Shown: positions 3,686 through 46,725 of the stretch, piece after piece
Position numbering within the stretch: the stretch's first letter is position 1
Layout: each line of letters opens with the position of its first letter
Virus record (IMG/VR): IMGVR_UViG_3300026097_000035
Span: 1 to 46,725 of that record
DNA length: 46,725 bases
Strand: one strand, 5' to 3'
Source: a virus
Position numbers and translations under genes: made by a program
The notes under the pieces: generated by a model
What the model was told of the DNA's origin: nothing
Databases searched by the model: none
What the model saw: only the letters and a program-made list of their open reading frames with translations

Positions 3686-4185
3686 TCAGTCTCCGCTTCC
3701 AACTCGCCCTTGGCTCTTACTAAGCCTTCCATGATCAGCTCATCTAGCTCATCTTTGTCAACTTCTGGGTATCTAACCTTCAACTCGCCCTTTGCAAAGT
3801 TCAAAGCGGCGTCCATAGCCTTCAGCATAATCCGCTGTTGGTACTCGCTGAGCTTGATAATGTCCACATCGAGGCGTTCCCTCTCTGAGTCAAGCCTGCG
3901 ACCAATCTCCTGCAAGACTTTCAGCAGCAACCTAGCCGAGTCTTCGTCACGCATTTCGATTGCACGCTGAGATAGGCTGTCTTTTAGTTCGTTTAGCTCA
4001 AACAGCAACAACTGCCGACGTTCGACCTCGTTCCAGATATCTCTGTTTGAGAGCAGCTGCTTTACATGGAGCACAGCTTGTGCGGCTGGGATGCCAGTCA
4101 GTGCTTCCATCTCATCGCCAGACTTACCGCTCGCAGCGGCTTTGATCAGGGTTTCATCTAAAAGGGAGACGGCATTTTGTGACAT
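3682..4185 (-). CDS. Probable terminase small subunit
   Basis: 167 residues from the ATG at 4185. An upstream in-frame TTG at 4218 is rejected because that TTG is the start of the promoter -35 box. N-terminal residues form a probable helix-turn-helix (DETLIKAAASGKSGDEMEAL followed by TGIPAAQAVLHVKQLL), and the rest is long, charged coiled-coil helix, the usual shape of TerS oligomers that recognise the packaging site. It overlaps the zinc-ribbon gene by 4 bases and lies just before TerL. No Shine-Dalgarno precedes the ATG; a TATAAT box ends 6 nt upstream, so translation is probably leaderless. Function rests on position and architecture. Confidence 0.65.
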   Translation of the reverse strand: MSQNAVSLLDETLIKAAASGKSGDEMEALTGIPAAQAVLHVKQLLSNRDIWNEVERRQLLLFELNELKDSLSQRAIEMRDEDSARLLLKVLQEIGRRLDSERERLDVDIIKLSEYQQRIMLKAMDAALNFAKGELKVRYPEVDKDELDELIMEGLVRAKGELEAETE

Positions 4186-4749: not shown

Positions 4750-4774
4750 AAAAAACCCGCCATTTCTGGCGGGC
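4750..4774 (-). terminator. Rho-independent terminator of the leftward early operon
   Basis: Minus strand: CCCGCCA stem, GAAA tetraloop, TGGCGGG, then six T residues. It lies just past the stop of the 4791-5174 gene and separates the leftward early operon from the late block. Confidence 0.9.
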
Positions 4775-4790
4775 TTCTCTGTTTGGCTGG

Positions 4791-5174
4791 TTATGCTGTG
4801 AAGTGCTTTAGTGCCTCGTTGCAGTTGTCGCAAGCTTTCCAAAAACATTCCTCGCCTTCGTGTGCTTTTACTTTGCAGTCTTGCAAGCTGGTACTAAATT
4901 GGTGGTGTTCGCACAAAAACGGGTCACTAATTGCCTCGGCGTTGTCGGTTAGCATTTCGTGGCACTTGGCTAGTATCTCGGTGTAGGCTTTGGCTTGTCC
5001 AAATTCCAAGCTCGCATTTCTTAACATTGTCCATTTGCTGGTGCTGTCTAGCCCTATGGTCTGGCTCTCATTCAAAAAGTGCCTCGCCATTGTTTCGGCT
5101 CGTGTCCTGCCGTTGTCTGCCGTTGCGATTACCTCTCGAATTGTGTCAATGTCCCAATTGTTTAGTTCTTCCAT
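4791..5174 (-). CDS. Cys/His-rich protein of unknown function (127 aa)
   Basis: Acidic helical N-terminus (MEELNNWDIDTIREVIATAD), then a C-terminal part with seven Cys/His in spaced pairs (FLCEHHQF, DCKVKAH, ECFWKACDNC), which suggests a zinc-bound fold. No family recognised. The RBS is AAGAAAGGGAAGAA directly upstream of the ATG, and a sigma70-like promoter lies at 5203-5232. It is the last gene before the terminator at 4750-4774. An early host-interaction role is possible but only from position. Confidence 0.7.
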   Translation of the reverse strand: MEELNNWDIDTIREVIATADNGRTRAETMARHFLNESQTIGLDSTSKWTMLRNASLEFGQAKAYTEILAKCHEMLTDNAEAISDPFLCEHHQFSTSLQDCKVKAHEGEECFWKACDNCNEALKHFTA

Positions 5175-5202
5175 TTTCTTCCCTTTCTTTCTTTGTGCTT
5201 CT

Positions 5203-5322: not shown

Positions 5323-5415
5323 TCAGATTATGCCCAAGCCCTGCCCTATGAATAACAAAATCAAAGGCAAGCCCATTGCAAAAATCATTGCTGTTTCTTT
5401 TATCCATCTAACCAT
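5323..5415 (-). CDS. Tiny single-pass membrane protein (30 aa)
   Basis: ATG at 5415 overlaps the end of the 5408-5614 gene and follows a good SD (GGGAGG about 7 nt upstream). Residues 1-9 (MVRWIKETA) are polar and basic; residues 10-30 are one uninterrupted hydrophobic helix (IFAMGLPLILLFIGQGLGII). It is too short for ordinary gene callers. Phages use such peptides as superinfection-exclusion, antiholin or lysis proteins; which applies here is unknown. A competing 38-codon frame from an ATG five bases further on is less convincing. Confidence 0.5.
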   Translation of the reverse strand: MVRWIKETAMIFAMGLPLILLFIGQGLGII

Positions 5416-5614
5416 TGTCCGCCCTCCCTAGATATTCCATCGTGTGGCTACACTCTGGCACACTCTCCGCACAATTGCAAGAACTGAAACTCTTCAAGTG
5501 CTTGGGGCAATTCTCTCCAGTTTGAAAAGCGTTATAAATCTCTTCCGCCTCTTCTTCACTATCTGCCGAAATCTCGACTTCTTCACAAACTACTAACGCC
5601 CTAAAGTTCTTCAC
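5408..5614 (-). CDS. Small Cys-rich acidic protein (68 aa)
   Basis: GTG start at 5614 overlapping the upstream stop (GTGA). The N-terminal half has the pattern beta strand, then SADSEEEAEEIYNAF; the same pattern (ESREEAEEIAQN) appears in the 53-aa gene at 8476-8637, suggesting a shared small alpha/beta fold. The C-terminal half carries four Cys plus His (ENCPKH, SCNCAE, ECSH), a probable metal site. Function unknown; part of the leftward early operon. Confidence 0.65.
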   Translation of the reverse strand: MKNFRALVVCEEVEISADSEEEAEEIYNAFQTGENCPKHLKSFSSCNCAESVPECSHTMEYLGRADNG

Positions 5615-5823
5615 GCTTTCGCCTCCATTGTCTGCAAGATTTCGCCCTTGTCATTGGTTAGCACAATCTCACCAATTGCCCAACTGCTTTTGGTGTCTTT
5701 GTGTGCCTTGTCCATAATGTGGCCAATGGCCTCCAGTGTGGCAACATCGTCACGACTTGCCCAAACTGTTTTGGTGTTTGTCTTTCCGTTTAGCTTTGCT
5801 TTTAGTGTGTATGGCTTCAACAT
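5611..5823 (-). CDS. Small protein, first gene of leftward early operon (70 aa)
   Basis: MLKPYTLKAKLNGKTNTKTVWASRDD start with RBS AAGAAAGGG 12 nt upstream. Predicted compact alpha/beta protein with alternating strand patterns (WAIGEIVLTNDKGEILQTME). No family recognised. Lies directly downstream of the promoter at 5854-5883 and is coupled to the next gene by GTGA. Confidence 0.65.
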   Translation of the reverse strand: MLKPYTLKAKLNGKTNTKTVWASRDDVATLEAIGHIMDKAHKDTKSSWAIGEIVLTNDKGEILQTMEAKA

Positions 5824-5853
5824 TGTTTTACCCTTTCTTTATGTTGTAATCAA

Positions 5854-5883
5854 AAGTTAGCACAACGGGCAAACACTTGTCAA
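5854..5883 (-). promoter_or_regulatory. Main leftward early promoter
   Basis: Minus strand perfect TTGACA (5883-5878), 18-nt spacer, TAACTT (5859-5854). Transcription should start near 5847, giving a short leader with the RBS AAGAAAGGG. An A/T tract (AAAAAAACTTTTTTT on the minus strand) upstream could act as an UP element. Confidence 0.7.
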
Positions 5884-5917
5884 GCATTTTCTAAAAAAAG
5901 TTTTTTTCTTTTTCAGC

Positions 5918-5946
5918 TTGACAATCTCCAAAACCTCCCCTAATGT
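5918..5946 (+). promoter_or_regulatory. Promoter of the hairpin RNA
   Basis: Perfect TTGACA (5918-5923), optimal 17-nt spacer, TAATGT (5941-5946; keeps the T-A-n-n-n-T positions). Predicted start is near 5953, three bases before the hairpin. No gene lies between it and the terminator, so its only product would be the small RNA. Confidence 0.6.
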
Positions 5947-5952
5947 TTTCAA

Positions 5953-6010
5953 CGGGTCGAGTGCTTGAAACTTCTTCCCCCTTTCTTGTTTCAAGCACTC
6001 GACTTTTTTT
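5953..6010 (+). ncRNA. Probable ~57-nt hairpin RNA with SD-complementary loop
   Basis: A perfect 16-bp stem (GTCGAGTGCTTGAAAC at 5956-5971, its complement at 5988-6003) closes a 16-nt all-pyrimidine loop (TTCTTCCCCCTTTCTT, 5972-5987) and is followed by seven T. A promoter ends just before it, so the whole transcript would be promoter, hairpin, stop. The loop is complementary to the RBS of the first rightward gene (AAGAAAGGGG, 6436-6445, 10 nt), of the 5823 gene (AAGAAAGGG) and, with a two-base bulge, of the 5174 gene (AAGAAAGGGAAGAA). That suggests a trans-acting regulator of early translation. The alternative is a plain terminator for read-through from the left. Confidence 0.55.
5956..6010 (+). 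terminator. Rightward intrinsic terminator (same hairpin)
   Basis: The 16-bp stem plus TTTTTTT at 6004-6010 is an unusually strong rightward terminator. The minus-strand side has no T run, so it acts only on plus-strand transcription, where no upstream gene exists. Confidence 0.8.
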
Positions 6011-6110
6011 ATGCCTGAGATGGATCACTAAGAAAAAAACCCTGAGATAAAAACCGCTCAAAAAACCAGAGACAAATTCGTGTCGTGGAATGAATTTGTT
6101 CCAGACCTAA

Positions 6111-6171
6111 TTCTCTCTCTCTAACTATTAGTAATAATAATATATATATATATAATCTAGGAGAGAGAGGG
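6111..6171. other. AT-rich unwinding-type tract flanked by CT and GA runs
   Basis: A pure A/T stretch of about 25 bp (TAATAATAATATATATATAT core, 6130-6156) sits between TCTCTCTCTCT (6112-6122) and GGAGAGAGAGGG (6160-6171), which are imperfect inverted complements. AT unwinding elements next to repeated motifs are typical of replication origins; that function is an inference. Confidence 0.45.
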
Positions 6172-6258
6172 CTTGTAAAAATCGCCTTTTTGAACCGTAT
6201 TTGCACAATTCTGCGTACAAATTCGTCTAAATAATCGTATTTGCACCAAATCCCAAAA

Positions 6259-6342
6259 CACTACAACGCTATACATTACATAAAACGCTATTTCAAAATA
6301 GTATTTCTGCAGCGAAATAAAATAGTGTATAGTGTTGTAATG
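6259..6342. repeat. 84-bp interrupted inverted repeat
   Basis: Outer arms of 17 bp (6259-6275 and 6326-6342) match with two mismatches: CACTACAACGCTATACA against the complement of TGTATAGTGTTGTAATG. Between them lies a second dyad (TATTTC at 6302-6307 and GAAATA at 6314-6319 around CTGCAG). No T run follows, so it is not an ordinary terminator. It may be a cruciform-forming origin element or a regulator site. Confidence 0.55.
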
Positions 6343-6392
6343 TTTTCAAGTTGCGTACAAATTCGTTTATTTGAACGAATTTGCCCAATTAC

Positions 6393-6421
6393 TTGACAAC
6401 ATAATTACAAACCGTTATAGT
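6393..6421 (+). promoter_or_regulatory. Rightward early promoter
   Basis: Perfect TTGACA (6393-6398), 17-nt spacer, TATAGT (6416-6421). Transcription should start near 6428, giving a leader of about 24 nt that holds AAGAAAGGGG at 6436-6445. The palindrome 6358-6383 lies directly upstream of the -35. No comparable promoter is visible for the next 14 kb, so it probably drives the whole early operon. Confidence 0.8.
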
Positions 6422-6451
6422 CAAAACTAGGTACAAAGAAAGGGGCAAAAA

Positions 6452-6799
6452 ATGCCACAACTAAAAGTAAACAACAGAGAATTCAACATTGAATTCGATG
6501 GCTCAATGCAGGGGTTCAGAATGAATGCCAGTGAATGGGACGGTTCCAATTGGCAGGATATCGAGTATTTCACTTGGGATATTCAGCGAATTGGGCAGAC
6601 ACAATTCGAGGCTCTATGCGACTTGTCCAGTGAGCTATTCAGAGAGGCAGTTTATGCTGAAGATTTTGCCATAACTCTTGGCGTTGATATCCGTTTCTCT
6701 GATGATGTTGATTGCAGAGATTGTGACTATTTCGGAAACTATTCAGAGATGGCAGAAGTAGATGATGAGTATCTCTGCCTAGATTGCGAGGCAAAATAA
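6452..6799 (+). CDS. Early protein with C-terminal zinc knuckle (115 aa)
   Basis: First gene of the rightward operon, ATG preceded by AAGAAAGGGG at 7 nt. The body is acidic with aromatic-rich strands (EWDGSNWQDIEYFTWDIQ); the C-terminus has CRDC and CLDC about 22 residues apart, a probable zinc ribbon. Not recognised. Its stop overlaps the next start (TAATG). As the first product of infection it may be a host-takeover protein. Confidence 0.75.
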   Translation: MPQLKVNNREFNIEFDGSMQGFRMNASEWDGSNWQDIEYFTWDIQRIGQTQFEALCDLSSELFREAVYAEDFAITLGVDIRFSDDVDCRDCDYFGNYSEMAEVDDEYLCLDCEAK

Positions 6800-7200
6800 T
6801 GAAATCACTACAACCACGACAAACTGAATTCGGCTTAGGCGTATTCGAGGGCTTAGAGATAGTAGCGGTATATAAGCCAAACTATTTGCAGTCACCAGAG
6901 GATATTGGTGCTGAACTTGAGCCAATGCAGGTACAAGCGTGGAAACAGAGTTACTGGTGCTATGCAGACTTGACTATCCAAGCCCGTTTCGAGGGAATGA
7001 TATTAGGTGAGATCGAGAGAGAGAACTTTATCTATGGACAATTTCCAGACCCTGACACTCGGCAATTGCTTGATTTCAGCGAACACAACTTTTGGCAACC
7101 GGTGAGAGATGAACTGATTGAAGATAACCAGCACAAACACGCCATATTCGAGGCTAAGGCTTTTTTGAATAGGGCAAAGAAACTAATGGAGGCAAACTAA
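6799..7200 (+). CDS. Unknown early protein (133 aa)
   Basis: ATG at 6799 in a TAATG junction is preferred over an in-frame ATG 15 bases upstream inside the previous gene. Mixed alpha/beta sequence rich in aromatic and Glu residues (YWCYADLTIQARFEGM, LLDFSEHNFWQPVRDEL), with a Lys/Ala helix at the end. No domain recognised. It immediately precedes the ssDNA-binding gene and ends in TAATG with it. Confidence 0.7.
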   Translation: MKSLQPRQTEFGLGVFEGLEIVAVYKPNYLQSPEDIGAELEPMQVQAWKQSYWCYADLTIQARFEGMILGEIERENFIYGQFPDPDTRQLLDFSEHNFWQPVRDELIEDNQHKHAIFEAKAFLNRAKKLMEAN

Positions 7201-7559
7201 TGAACACACAAGTAACACTGACTGGCTTAGTTGCGACTACGCCTAGACAAACCAATGGACAAACCCGTTTCAGGCTGGTAACAGTCGAGGGCGAGGGAAA
7301 CGACCACCTAGCTAGTGATGGTTCATCACACAGCACAAATTGGTTCACCATAAAATGCCCTGTTTCAATGGCAGACAATGTTTTACAGTCAATTCAGAAA
7401 GGCAACAGGGTAATTCTCACTGGAGATTTGCAAGTCAATGAATGGGACAATGGCGAAATGACTGGCACAACAGTTGAGATAGTCGTGTCTGCAATTGGCT
7501 ACGACCTAACCTATGGCGTTTCAGAGAACACGAGAATATTCAAAACGGAGGATAACTAA
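7200..7559 (+). CDS. ssb: Single-stranded DNA-binding protein (OB fold)
   Basis: 119 residues with bacterial SSB-like order of strands: MNTQVTLTGLVATTPR at the start, TRFRLVTVEG, then NWFTIKCPVSMADNVLQSIQKGNRVILTGDLQVNEWDNGE with the diagnostic KGxRVxVxGxL strand-loop. It is shorter than host SSB (usually 150-180) and lacks the long disordered linker and the acidic DDxxPF tip, so it may not recruit the host SSB interactome in the usual way. Coats ssDNA during replication and recombination. Linked by TAATG on both sides. Confidence 0.85.
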   Translation: MNTQVTLTGLVATTPRQTNGQTRFRLVTVEGEGNDHLASDGSSHSTNWFTIKCPVSMADNVLQSIQKGNRVILTGDLQVNEWDNGEMTGTTVEIVVSAIGYDLTYGVSENTRIFKTEDN

Positions 7560-7744: not shown

Positions 7745-7872
7745 TGCAGATATTAGATATTTGTGATGATTTTGCACCCGATACCCTAGCCCCTGATGAG
7801 GGTGATGGATTTGATTACACGCTAATTTGTTCCAGTTGTTTCTGGCACAAAGACGACCATAAGAAAGGATAA
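7744..7872 (+). CDS. Tiny Cys-containing protein (42 aa)
   Basis: ATG at 7744 shares its A with the previous stop. Acidic half (CDDFAPDTLAPDEGDG) then ICSSCFWHKDDHKKG: Cys-x2-Cys plus two His suggest a single zinc knuckle. Unknown role; recognised as a gene by the overlap chain. Confidence 0.55.
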   Translation: MQILDICDDFAPDTLAPDEGDGFDYTLICSSCFWHKDDHKKG

Positions 7873-7875
7873 CTA

Positions 7876-8037
7876 ATGAGTGAATACACGCCAACAACAC
7901 CTGCAACTGCCGAGGCTTTTGACTATGGCTACGCAAAGGGAATTGAGGACACGCTTTACGACCTACAAGCGATATACCCCGAAATCAAGAACAGCGACCT
8001 ATGGAAAGAATACATAGAGAAAGGCGTAAGACAATGA
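7876..8037 (+). CDS. Small protein (53 aa)
   Basis: ATG at 7876, with GGAT/AAAGGA about 8 nt upstream, ending in ATGA with the next gene at 8034. The sequence is one long amphipathic helix region (ATAEAFDYGYAKGIEDTLYD) followed by LWKEYIEKGVRQ. The segment resembles short phage proteins of unknown function. Confidence 0.6.
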   Translation: MSEYTPTTPATAEAFDYGYAKGIEDTLYDLQAIYPEIKNSDLWKEYIEKGVRQ

Positions 8038-8911: not shown

Positions 8912-9423
8912 TGGGATTAGACCAGAGTTTCTACCTAAGAAAATGGGTTAGCTCGATTGACTGGATCAAGACCAATGGAGGCGACTTAGTTGATAATGAT
9001 GAATATGACAAGCTCACTTATCACTTTATGCCAGAGGATATTGACAAGCACGCTAGGCACAAGTCTGCACACATTGAAGTCAAGCTAATTGACTTGAGAA
9101 AGCTATATCCGCTTGAAGAGTGGTTAGACGCCAATTGTGAGTTTGCAGAGGGCAGAGATGAATTCGAGATCTCGCTGGACGAGTTTGAGAACTTAGCCAA
9201 AGCTTGTAGAGAAGTTGTGCAAGCGTCAGAGAGAGGGCTTGAAGATGAATATTTCACAAACCGCTTTTTCAACTATTTCGGAAGTGTGAGAGATTACACC
9301 ACAAGAGATATTGAGTATTTCGTGGAACAGCTTGACAAGCTTGCCGATTGCATTGACGACACACTGAAGCTAACTAAGAGAGATGGGTTTCACTACGAGA
9401 TCAGGTATTCGAGGAGCTACTGA
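8911..9423 (+). CDS. MGLD-type phage protein of unknown function (170 aa)
   Basis: Begins MGLDQSFYLRKWVSS, resembling a widespread class of uncharacterised phage proteins that start MGLD followed by a tyrosine-rich strand. Central part has many His/Lys and acidic helices (EEWLDANCEFAEGRDEFEISL), the end is aromatic (HYEIRYSRSY). No catalytic motif is evident. Starts in TAATG and ends in TGATG with the next gene. Confidence 0.75.
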   Translation: MGLDQSFYLRKWVSSIDWIKTNGGDLVDNDEYDKLTYHFMPEDIDKHARHKSAHIEVKLIDLRKLYPLEEWLDANCEFAEGRDEFEISLDEFENLAKACREVVQASERGLEDEYFTNRFFNYFGSVRDYTTRDIEYFVEQLDKLADCIDDTLKLTKRDGFHYEIRYSRSY

Positions 9424-23106: not shown

Positions 23107-24097
23107 TTTCTAATTCCTTTACTCGTTCGTTTAGTTCCTGCACACTCTTGTGTAAGAACATATATAGCTTGTCATACCTAAGCCCCTTATATTTGTCAAC
23201 TTCATTTGCAGGTATTACTAGATGCTCACCAAGCCCAATATCTTCAAAGTTTTCCAATATAAAACCAAGAGAAGTTGTTTGTGCCTCTTCGTCGGTTCTC
23301 ACCGCTTCACGCTTGTAGTTGAACGTAACTGGATTGACGGACATAAAGGCATCTGTGTCAAAAGTAAACTCTGTAATATTCTCTTTAGCCTCAATACTAG
23401 AAATGGTTGGATTTCTAAACATTGTGCCCGAGCTATTGATAAACAAGTTTCCGTTGAAGCTTGTAGTCGTATTGTTTGCTACAAAACTGTTTCTTAAGGC
23501 TTGTAAATCTTGGTCAACTTGAATAATACCGCAGTCAATCTGGGCAACATCTACAATACCGCCAGAGGTAAAGTCAGAAGCTGAAATGCTTACACCAGAT
23601 ATATTGACACCAGAAATATCGCTTGCGTCTATTGTTCCACCAGAAATCCTGTCAGCGGTAAGAGATCCAGTTGTTATGTTGCTTGCGTTTAAATTTGTAA
23701 CCGTTATCTCACTTGCATCAATTGTTCCAGCAGTAATTTGATTAGCACTAATTTCACCTGCGTAAACATAGTCGGCGTCAATCTGAGTTGCAGTAACAGA
23801 GCCAACAACCAAGTTAGCACCGTCTACTTCATAGTCTCCACCGGGTGTGCCTAGTCCAGTTAGTCCATTGATTGCATCAAGTGCGTCAGACGCAGCTTGT
23901 TGCGCATCAGCTGCAGCTTGCTGTGTTTCTAGGAATGTTGCGTCTAGTCTGCGAAAGCTTGCAGCTAACTGATCATCACGAGTTGTATTGTTGACCTCAG
24001 CTGACCGGAATGCCGTCTCTAGGTTTGCTACTCGCTTTTGAACTTCTCTAGCCCAAGGTTGCGACTGTGCCGATAAGTAGTTTCTACTAAATGTCAT
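23090..24097 (-). CDS. Tail fibre with S74 intramolecular chaperone
   Basis: 335 residues. N-terminal coiled coil (TQQAAADAQQAASDALDAIN), a repetitive triple-beta shaft with ISANQITAGTIDASEITVTN-type repeats, then a C-terminal S74 chaperone: SSIEAKENI supplies the Ser/Lys self-cleavage pair, followed by NPVTFNYK, LGFILENFEDIG, YKGLRYDKLYMFLHKSVQEL and a terminal coiled coil. The chaperone trimerises the fibre and is then cut off. Likely host receptor-binding fibre at the tail tip, since it follows the hub gene. Confidence 0.85.
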   Translation of the reverse strand: MTFSRNYLSAQSQPWAREVQKRVANLETAFRSAEVNNTTRDDQLAASFRRLDATFLETQQAAADAQQAASDALDAINGLTGLGTPGGDYEVDGANLVVGSVTATQIDADYVYAGEISANQITAGTIDASEITVTNLNASNITTGSLTADRISGGTIDASDISGVNISGVSISASDFTSGGIVDVAQIDCGIIQVDQDLQALRNSFVANNTTTSFNGNLFINSSGTMFRNPTISSIEAKENITEFTFDTDAFMSVNPVTFNYKREAVRTDEEAQTTSLGFILENFEDIGLGEHLVIPANEVDKYKGLRYDKLYMFLHKSVQELNERVKELENGATN

Positions 24098-31829: not shown

Positions 31830-31868
31830 GCCCCAGCTAGGCGAACGGGCGCAAAACCTAGCTGGGGC
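31830..31868. other. 12-bp perfect hairpin between major tail protein and chaperone
   Basis: GCCCCAGCTAGG (31830-31841) and its complement (31857-31868) close a 15-nt loop. No T run follows in either direction, so it is not a complete terminator; it could attenuate, protect the major tail protein mRNA 3' end, or be a processing site that lowers chaperone levels. Confidence 0.7.
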
Positions 31869-43564: not shown

Positions 43565-43578
43565 CCTTAGCAAATAGA

Positions 43579-43617
43579 AAAACCGCCTCTGGAGAAACAC
43601 TCGACAGAGGCGGTTTT
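43579..43617 (-). terminator. Terminator after glutaredoxin (bidirectional type)
   Basis: AAAACCGCCTCTG (43579-43591) and its perfect complement (43605-43617), 13-nt loop. T-rich ends on both strands (TTTTTC on the minus strand), strong stem. Confidence 0.88.
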
Positions 43618-43670
43618 ATCACACACAACACAAGTAACGTATAAGGAGGACACGCTACGAGATTAGTGTA

Positions 43671-44606: not shown

Positions 44607-44641
44607 AAATAAACCCCTTGGGGTTGCCAAGGGGTTTATTT
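44607..44641 (-). terminator. Terminator after major capsid gene
   Basis: 15-bp perfect stem (44607-44621 with 44627-44641, core AAACCCCTTGG), 5-nt loop, followed on the minus strand by TTTTTATG. Ends the high-level head gene transcript. Confidence 0.9.
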
Positions 44642-46137: not shown

Positions 46138-46725
46138 TTACTTTCTCTTGATGCGTGACACAACTGCGTCAAACTCATCTGCGGTGGTTGAGGTCTGTGC
46201 CTCGTGGACAACACCCTTCGTGTCGATTTCTGATGCAGCTACAGACTCTTTGAGTGAGTCTGCGTAAGCTTTCTCGTCTGCAATCAGCTCGTCAACAGTC
46301 TTGGCGTTCTGGTCTGACTTCATGGTCTCTGCTACACGCTGTAGCGCAACCTTTGGAAGTCCTGACTCGTTGAACTTCTCTGCAACTTCAACTGGGTCGA
46401 TGGCTGGAGCTTCATCCTCCACGGCCTCCTCCACAGCTTCAGCTGACTCCTCTACGAGCACAGATACTGACTCTCGCAAAGGAGCTAGAGCGTCAACAAA
46501 GGTTTCTTTGAGATCAGCTAGTGCTGCCTCAAACTCTTCCTTAGTAATTGACATTTCTTTTCCTTCCGTATTGGATTCTGCTACCAAATCGGTAACTTCA
46601 GCATTGTTTCTGTAGCTTTCCAGCAGAGCGACAAATTTGCCACCTGCACCTGCCACTGTGACCACATCAACACTTGTCAGCGGGTCTTCGACCAGCGACT
46701 CGATGATTGGTCCTTGTCTACCCTC
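46138..46725 (-). CDS. Prohead protease, 3' part, with nested scaffold
   Basis: Continues the protease that starts at 524 (bases 46580-46725 repeat 1-146). After the protease domain the sequence becomes an acidic, coiled-coil scaffold domain (EEFEAALADLKETFVDALAP, VEESAEAVEEAVEDEAPAID). An internal ATG at 46554 (MSITKEEF) follows GGAAGG at 8 nt and opens the same frame, so a 138-residue scaffold could be made separately, as in lambda C/Nu3. The end is basic (SRIKRK), suited to bind capsid subunits. Confidence 0.82.
   Translation of the reverse strand, partial: EGRQGPIIESLVEDPLTSVDVVTVAGAGGKFVALLESYRNNAEVTDLVAESNTEGKEMSITKEEFEAALADLKETFVDALAPLRESVSVLVEESAEAVEEAVEDEAPAIDPVEVAEKFNESGLPKVALQRVAETMKSDQNAKTVDELIADEKAYADSLKESVAASEIDTKGVVHEAQTSTTADEFDAVVSRIKRK
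46580..46725. repeat. Terminal direct repeat, right copy
   Basis: Identical to bases 1-146; see left copy. Indicates a circular assembly with a unit of 46579 bp. Confidence 0.95.

Follow-up and report, generated by a model that had tools for sequence, protein, structure and literature searches.

The divergent early region and its hairpin unit

The window analysed here is the entire virus record IMGVR_UViG_3300026097_000035 (G000), a stretch of 46,725 bases. Its first and last 146 bases (1-146 and 46580-46725) are identical, which suggests that the contig is probably a complete genome, either circular or terminally redundant. PHROG family matches in the window include portal, terminase, helicase, primase, tape-measure and capsid proteins. 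Protein comparison places it, among named phages, nearest mainly to those of Arthrobacter, Microbacterium, Curtobacterium and Clavibacter, at about 33-46% identity, and to judge from these protein relatives the host is probably an actinobacterium. Clavibacter phage CN1A and the window have the same layout, with replication in the rightward arm and structural genes in the leftward one. No DNA-level relatives of the 5918-6010 region were found among named phage records.

The leftward early genes (from 5823 down) and the rightward early genes (from 6452 up) are separated by a gap that contains a promoter, a hairpin and a T-run in direct succession (Table 1). The initial annotation had described this unit as a consensus promoter leading into a perfect 16-bp hairpin and seven T with no gene between. 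The spacing, the stem and the T-run are as it claimed, and no supported ORF crosses the hairpin. "Consensus" was an overstatement: the -10 box TAATGT agrees with TATAAT at only three of six positions (T1, A2 and T6), and a simple sigma-70 scan misses the promoter. The pattern TTGACA-N16-18-TAnnnT nevertheless occurs only six times in the 46.7 kb, three of these being the leftward, hairpin and rightward promoters of the divergent region. The hairpin and leftward promoters are arranged back-to-back, with -35 boxes at 5918-5923 and 5883-5878, and have an A/T tract in common. A coding explanation for the region was set aside, as it is crossed by short minus-strand ORFs only, both here and in the relative described below.

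The stem is a perfect 16-bp helix that extends to 18 bp in the predicted fold by two outer G-U pairs. The fold has a predicted energy of -28.5 kcal/mol, where shuffled sequences average -8.5 (z -8.5; -7.6 for the predicted ~58-nt RNA). It is the only perfect stem of at least 16 bp (loop of 20 nt or less) in the window, and none was found in 40 dinucleotide shuffles of the genome. The UUCUUCCCCCUUUCUU segment of the loop is unpaired in both the MFE and the centroid structures, which places a UCCC motif in an unpaired loop. The G+C-containing stem followed by T7 has the composition of an intrinsic terminator, with a 16-nt loop that exceeds the limit of 8 in the terminator scanner used. With its own promoter (TTGACA-17-TAATGT, kept in the relative) and no supported ORF, the unit has the make-up of an independent small RNA gene. 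With a start some 7 nt past the -10 box, near 5953, the RNA would consist essentially of the hairpin and a U-tail, about 58 nt in all.

Table 1. Features of the divergent early region, with C-run-loop terminators of distant relatives
Feature	Position	Strand	Basis and remarks
A/T tract between back-to-back -35 boxes, UP-element-like	5884..5917	.	Sequence; same architecture in L078; putative function
Promoter of hairpin RNA	5918..5946	+	-35 TTGACA 5918-5923, 17-nt spacer, -10 TAATGT 5941-5946; sequence and L078 comparison
Predicted ~58-nt small RNA	5953..6010	+	Predicted from promoter and terminator; start ~7 nt after -10, end at T-run
5' stem arm GTCGAGTGCTTGAAAC	5956..5971	+	Perfectly complementary to 5988-6003; compensatory changes in L078
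Loop TTCTTCCCCCTTTCTT, 16 nt, anti-Shine-Dalgarno-like	5972..5987	+	16/16 in L078; complement of early RBSs
3' stem arm GTTTCAAGCACTCGAC	5988..6003	+	Complementary to 5956-5971
T7 tail of intrinsic terminator, TTTTTTT	6004..6010	+	7/7 kept in L078
Leftward early promoter TTGACA-18-TAACTT	5854..5883	-	Back-to-back with hairpin promoter; kept in L078
RBS AAGAAAGGG of first leftward gene 5611-5823	5831..5839	-	9-nt exact match to loop complement
First leftward early gene, 70 aa, predicted target	5611..5823	-	No family match
RBS AAGAAAGGGAAGAA of leftward gene 4791-5174	5176..5189	-	Pairs with both loop halves; duplex -18.3, rank 1/71
Leftward gene, 127 aa, predicted target	4791..5174	-	No family match; behind own promoter-like sequence, read by eye only
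Rightward early promoter TTGACA-17-TATAGT, near-consensus	6393..6421	+	Promoter scan and pattern; kept in L078
RBS AAGAAAGGGG of first rightward gene 6452-6799	6436..6445	+	10-nt exact match to loop complement; duplex -15.6, rank 2/71
First rightward early gene, 115 aa, predicted target	6452..6799	+	No family match
C-run-loop terminators	L022:757-798, L024:6954-6999, L028:6573-6613, L030:1805-1840, L031:1249-1282, L035:3554-3588		Distant relatives
C-run-loop terminators, continued	L039:6786-6828, L046:6662-6707, L048:7121-7162, L049:7109-7151, L072:6868-6901		Distant relatives

The stretch at 6072-6384 resembles an origin or operator region. It carries three repeats of the form ACAAATTCGT-spacer-ATTTG (at 6072, 6217 and 6357), an A/T-rich palindrome CTCTCTCTC...GAGAGAGAG at about 6104-6172, and 61-nt arms at 6218-6278 and 6323-6383. 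Positions 6071-6103 are identical in L078 (33/33), and parts of the region recur in many relatives. Elsewhere in the window, strong hairpins are found in the late region at 44607-44641 (15-bp perfect stem, loop GGTTG), 43577-43619 (15 pairs with one G-U, 13-nt loop) and 31830-31868 (12-bp perfect stem, 15-nt loop). These three are probably terminators between late genes.

Conservation in a divergent relative

The unit was compared with its counterpart in one divergent relative from the viral collection, IMGVR 3300007609_000057 (L008/L078, hereafter L078); a further record, IMGVR 3300007609_000073, is 100% identical over the compared stretch and represents the same phage. L078 and the window agree at 94% in terL and 86% in the helicase, and at 79% of nucleotides over 640 bp of the hairpin region. 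In L078 the hairpin promoter retains the -35 box at 6/6 and the -10 box at 5/6 positions (TAGTGT), with the spacer length kept while five of its 17 bases differ. The back-to-back arrangement with the leftward promoter across the A/T tract is also retained, and neither the loop nor the T-run has changed. The 60 nt 3' of the T-run are only 54% identical (34/63 columns).

The stem has behaved differently from the loop. No change was counted in its outer seven pairs, and in the inner part four pairs have had both partners replaced and still pair (a fifth is gained by shifting one gap manually), and one A.A mismatch has been added. Sliding the partner by 1-3 columns as a control gave no two-sided compensated pairs, and 36 of 500 column shuffles reached the observed stem covariation, a figure that comes from a single two-sequence comparison, as only two independent phages carry the hairpin. 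A changed stem with a fixed loop, promoter and T-run is the pattern predicted for an RNA with a working loop, and the comparison thus lends good support to the small-RNA reading of the initial annotation, which had itself called for a search of relatives for stem covariation. That annotation had held that a stem kept in related phages around a loop unrelated to their RBSs would speak against the idea; the opposite was found.

The loop 16-mer occurs at least 167 times in the fetched viral and bacterial loci and, among the matches listed, lies in a hairpin only in these phages. Searches with the adjacent proteins, with the loop, stem and operator sequences and with a relaxed stem-loop pattern found no third lineage. 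One step further out, in L009, L013, L015 and L087, a rightward gene replaces the divergent region and no hairpin is found.

Among more distant relatives, the leftward early operon ends about 0.85-1.4 kb before terL in a terminator whose loop carries a run of C (TCCCCC, CCCCC, CTCCCCC etc.) and whose stem has diverged (Table 1), and 11 of 30 distinct short terminator loops in these phages contain CCCC. Other members have GCAA or TTCG in the loop at this position, and the counterpart in the window (~4750-4775, minus strand) has AGAAAT. The C-rich loops were rejected as homologues of the hairpin: their place is the 3' end of the leftward operon, some 1 kb upstream of terL, their orientation is the opposite one, and few RBSs with GGGG occur in those distant phages. 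An element close to AAAGAAATCATTTTATTA is conserved within about 100 nt after the C-loop terminators and before the terminase operon in L022, L024, L028, L030, L046, L048 and L072. It is possibly a phage late promoter or factor site; no close copy was found in the window.

Complementarity of the loop to ribosome binding sites and to the 16S tail

Outside the hairpin, exact complements of the loop of at least 9 nt occur at three places on the two strands of the 46.7 kb (6436-6445, 5831-5839 and 5181-5189). Each of the three is in sense orientation and coincides with the RBS of a promoter-proximal early gene, and the only additional 8-nt complement in the window is also in an RBS (7861-7868). 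The matches given in the initial annotation are correct; at the third site, AAGAAAGGG (5181-5189) overlaps GGGAAGAA. Its statement that genes further inside the operons use GGAGG-type sites does not hold for all of them, since the RBSs at 7876 (AAGAAAGGA) and 8034 (AGAAAGGCG) are near the early type. The SD regions of the three target leaders are predicted to be mostly unpaired (0.72, 0.85 and 0.91).

The three early RBSs rank 1, 2 and 4 of 71 by energy of the duplex with the loop, a measure that ignores the strain of pairing inside a closed loop. Random RBS triples are equally good at a frequency of 4-5e-5. The comparison with shuffled loops, also proposed in the initial annotation, calls for caution: 12 of 1000 shuffled loops reach the mean duplex energy, and when the flanking genes of both phages are taken together 31 of 5000 do so. 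Because 754 of 20000 composition-matched shuffled loops (3.8%) match all three RBSs with at least 9 nt, the complementarity alone is modest evidence. The match is significant, not overwhelming, and the SD-likeness of purine-rich RBSs explains part of it. A full-genome scan also returns strong pairings with the loop outside RBSs, for example at 9226-9250; energy alone is insufficient and the targets are singled out by their position at an accessible SD.

In the 21.4 kb of L078 that was read, the only 9-nt complement is again the RBS of the left promoter-proximal gene (L078:5329-5337, the same 9-mer). The gene behind it is unrelated to that of the window, and the RBS 9-mer is kept nonetheless; neither of the window proteins 5611-5823 and 6452-6799 has a match in L078. 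The right-hand gene of L078 has a 7-nt match only (AAAGGGG, rank 8/35), and the gene at L078:3761-4096, behind the homologue of the 5174 promoter, has an unrelated RBS (duplex -8.1). The proposed targeting of early RBSs thus finds support in both phages, but only moderately, given the shuffles, the near-identity of the loop to the 16S anti-SD core, the short match on the right and the unmatched further promoter-proximal gene in L078. Early genes have been swapped behind conserved promoters. An SSB-like gene, for example, is in the rightward arm of the window (7200-7559) and in the leftward arm of L078, where it is the gene at 3761-4096.

The loop also resembles the anti-SD tail of 16S rRNA. 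The tail used for comparison, GGATCACCTCCTTTCTAAGGAG, was read directly from a genome recorded as Microbacterium. Over the anti-SD core the two are identical at nine of ten positions (CCCCCUUUCU in the loop, CCUCCUUUCU in 16S); the one difference is a U-to-C change, and further pyrimidines flank the core in the loop. At AAGAAAGGGG the 16S pairing has a G.U where the loop has a G-C, and at GGAGG sites the loop gives an A.C mismatch. As a result the loop is the stronger partner on the early RBSs, with loop/16S-tail duplex energies of -18.3/-9.4, -15.6/-11.7 and -12.6/-9.2. The order is reversed at GGAGG sites (-6.6/-11.3 at 5408 and -7.2/-12.2 at 24094).

This resemblance could mean that the RNA is a general anti-SD mimic that pairs with many, mainly host, SDs and depresses host translation, the fit to phage RBSs being a by-product of their SD-likeness. 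The near-identity to the 16S core agrees with such a role, as does the correlation of loop and 16S-tail energies over the phage RBSs (r 0.62-0.68). There are also precedents, in that the mycobacterial B11 RNA acts on many host genes (PMC10470900) and cluster A mycobacteriophages make an abundant, host-toxic non-coding RNA from an early promoter (PMC5712189). However, the U-to-C change weakens pairing at canonical GGAGG sites, and once 16S-tail energy has been regressed out, ranks of 1, 2 and 5 of 71 remain for the three early RBSs. A general, host-directed action is on this balance improbable. Ribosome mimicry as such, which the initial annotation had listed as an alternative to antisense pairing, is not distinct from it in practice, because pairing with SDs is also the way in which a copied anti-SD acts.

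A candidate switch for early translation

The best explanation, to which we give slightly better than even chances, is that the phage encodes a self-contained, trans-acting sRNA of about 58 nt whose anti-SD loop blocks translation of early mRNAs. Transcription from the promoter back-to-back with the leftward early promoter would run straight into the stem-loop, which would form the body of the RNA and also terminate it. On both arms the loop would pair with AAGAAAGGG(G), the RBS type of the promoter-proximal early genes, and the paired RNA would compete with the 30S subunit at these sites. As the RNA builds up, early proteins would be turned down. The U-to-C change would allow the loop to outbind the ribosome tail at early RBSs while binding GGAGG-type RBSs more weakly. 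A more specific form of this proposal is offered tentatively: the phage may have taken the anti-SD of the ribosome into the loop of a hairpin and adjusted it by a single base (U to C), with the result that the loop outcompetes the ribosome at early RBSs of the phage itself (AAGAAAGGGG) and spares the GGAGG RBSs inside the operons. This would give a single RNA that switches translation of the promoter-proximal early genes on both arms, retained while the genes behind the RBSs were swapped.

The hairpin could instead act only as a terminator or insulator that keeps rightward transcription out of the operator- and repeat-rich stretch at 6070-6385, a likely replication origin, with an incidental loop. 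It is indeed a strong intrinsic terminator facing that stretch, and ordinary terminators are found in the same genome section in other members of the phage group. But there is no rightward gene upstream, a conserved promoter directly precedes the hairpin, and a plain terminator needs no invariant 16-nt loop on a stem that has changed. We regard this function on its own as unlikely. In another reading the unit is a 5' attenuator or replication-control RNA, and the hairpin governs occasional read-through of the 5918 transcript into the rightward operon or the origin-like region. The location of the hairpin would suit such a role, as it borders a stretch rich in repeats and in A/T that holds three operator-like repeats, one of which is fully kept in the relative. 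This reading has little probability, as the rightward operon has its own near-consensus promoter, sequence past the T-run is poorly conserved and no loop complement of 8 nt or more is found within the origin-like region. A DNA-level element, bound by protein or extruded as a cruciform, is highly improbable: the arms form a perfect inverted repeat and other palindromes are nearby, but the loop is conserved and asymmetric, the T-run is directional and a promoter is present, all of which point to RNA, and protein sites usually keep the sequence of their arms, whereas here the inner arms changed around a fixed loop.

If it acts as a trans-acting anti-SD RNA, the hairpin RNA is akin in its predicted action to several known SD-blocking RNAs, and it is a member of no known family. 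No Rfam family, including 6C RNA (RF01066), reaches its gathering score in the window, and the RF01066 covariance model has no match at E<=10 in 5850-6060. The best weak bacterial scores are far below threshold (Pseudomon-1/ErsA 20.7 of 50 bits, LhrC 16.4 of 110 bits). In the UCCC-motif sRNAs of Firmicutes, such as S. aureus RNAIII and others and Listeria LhrC, an unpaired UCCC loop is aimed at the SDs of several mRNAs. The phage RNA likewise has an unpaired UCCC-containing loop in a stable hairpin, but the Firmicutes RNAs are larger, multi-domain host RNAs and the phage hairpin is smaller and single. The C-rich loops of the B11/6C sRNA pair with RBSs and repress (PMC10470900). The phage RNA resembles it as a small hairpin RNA with a C run in its loop, complementary to G-rich RBSs, in the actinobacterial setting of its likely host. 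It differs in having one stem-loop with a five-C run in a 16-nt loop instead of two stem-loops with about six C each, and in being phage-encoded, with a loop extended to read AAGAAAGGGG, whereas 6C/B11 is a host gene.

Among phage RNAs, the c4 RNA of P1 and P7 has loops complementary to the RBS region of a phage mRNA and blocks its translation (PMC12197685), a pairing of the kind predicted here. However, c4 serves the ant operon and immunity and comes from the leader of the very operon that it regulates, whereas the present hairpin is located between divergent operons with an independent promoter and would have three or more leaders, spread over both arms, as its targets. Having no Rfam match, one hairpin and not two, and its own promoter in place of a leader, it is outside both the 6C and the c4 types. 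Lambda OOP and P22 sar are short phage antisense RNAs that lower phage gene expression (PMC12197685); they are cis-antisense RNAs overlapping their target, whereas the hairpin RNA would act in trans on several RBSs. In mycobacteriophages L5 and D29 the early promoter Pleft yields a non-coding RNA in abundance (PMC5712189), a parallel to the early-promoter actinophage RNA predicted here. That RNA is about 500 nt long, lacks an evident stem-loop terminator and is not known to have a pairing target, as opposed to the predicted 58 nt or so with a terminator.

Little is known of trans-acting sRNAs with which a phage targets more than one early gene of its own, and the least where, as here, the hosts are probably environmental Actinobacteria. 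The present case suggests screening phage early regions for units of a promoter and a long-loop terminator. If the interpretation is true, the RNA would be a minimal (~58 nt) multi-target translational switch with its specificity in one base of an anti-SD loop, and a post-transcriptional end of phage early expression would become testable with simple reporters.
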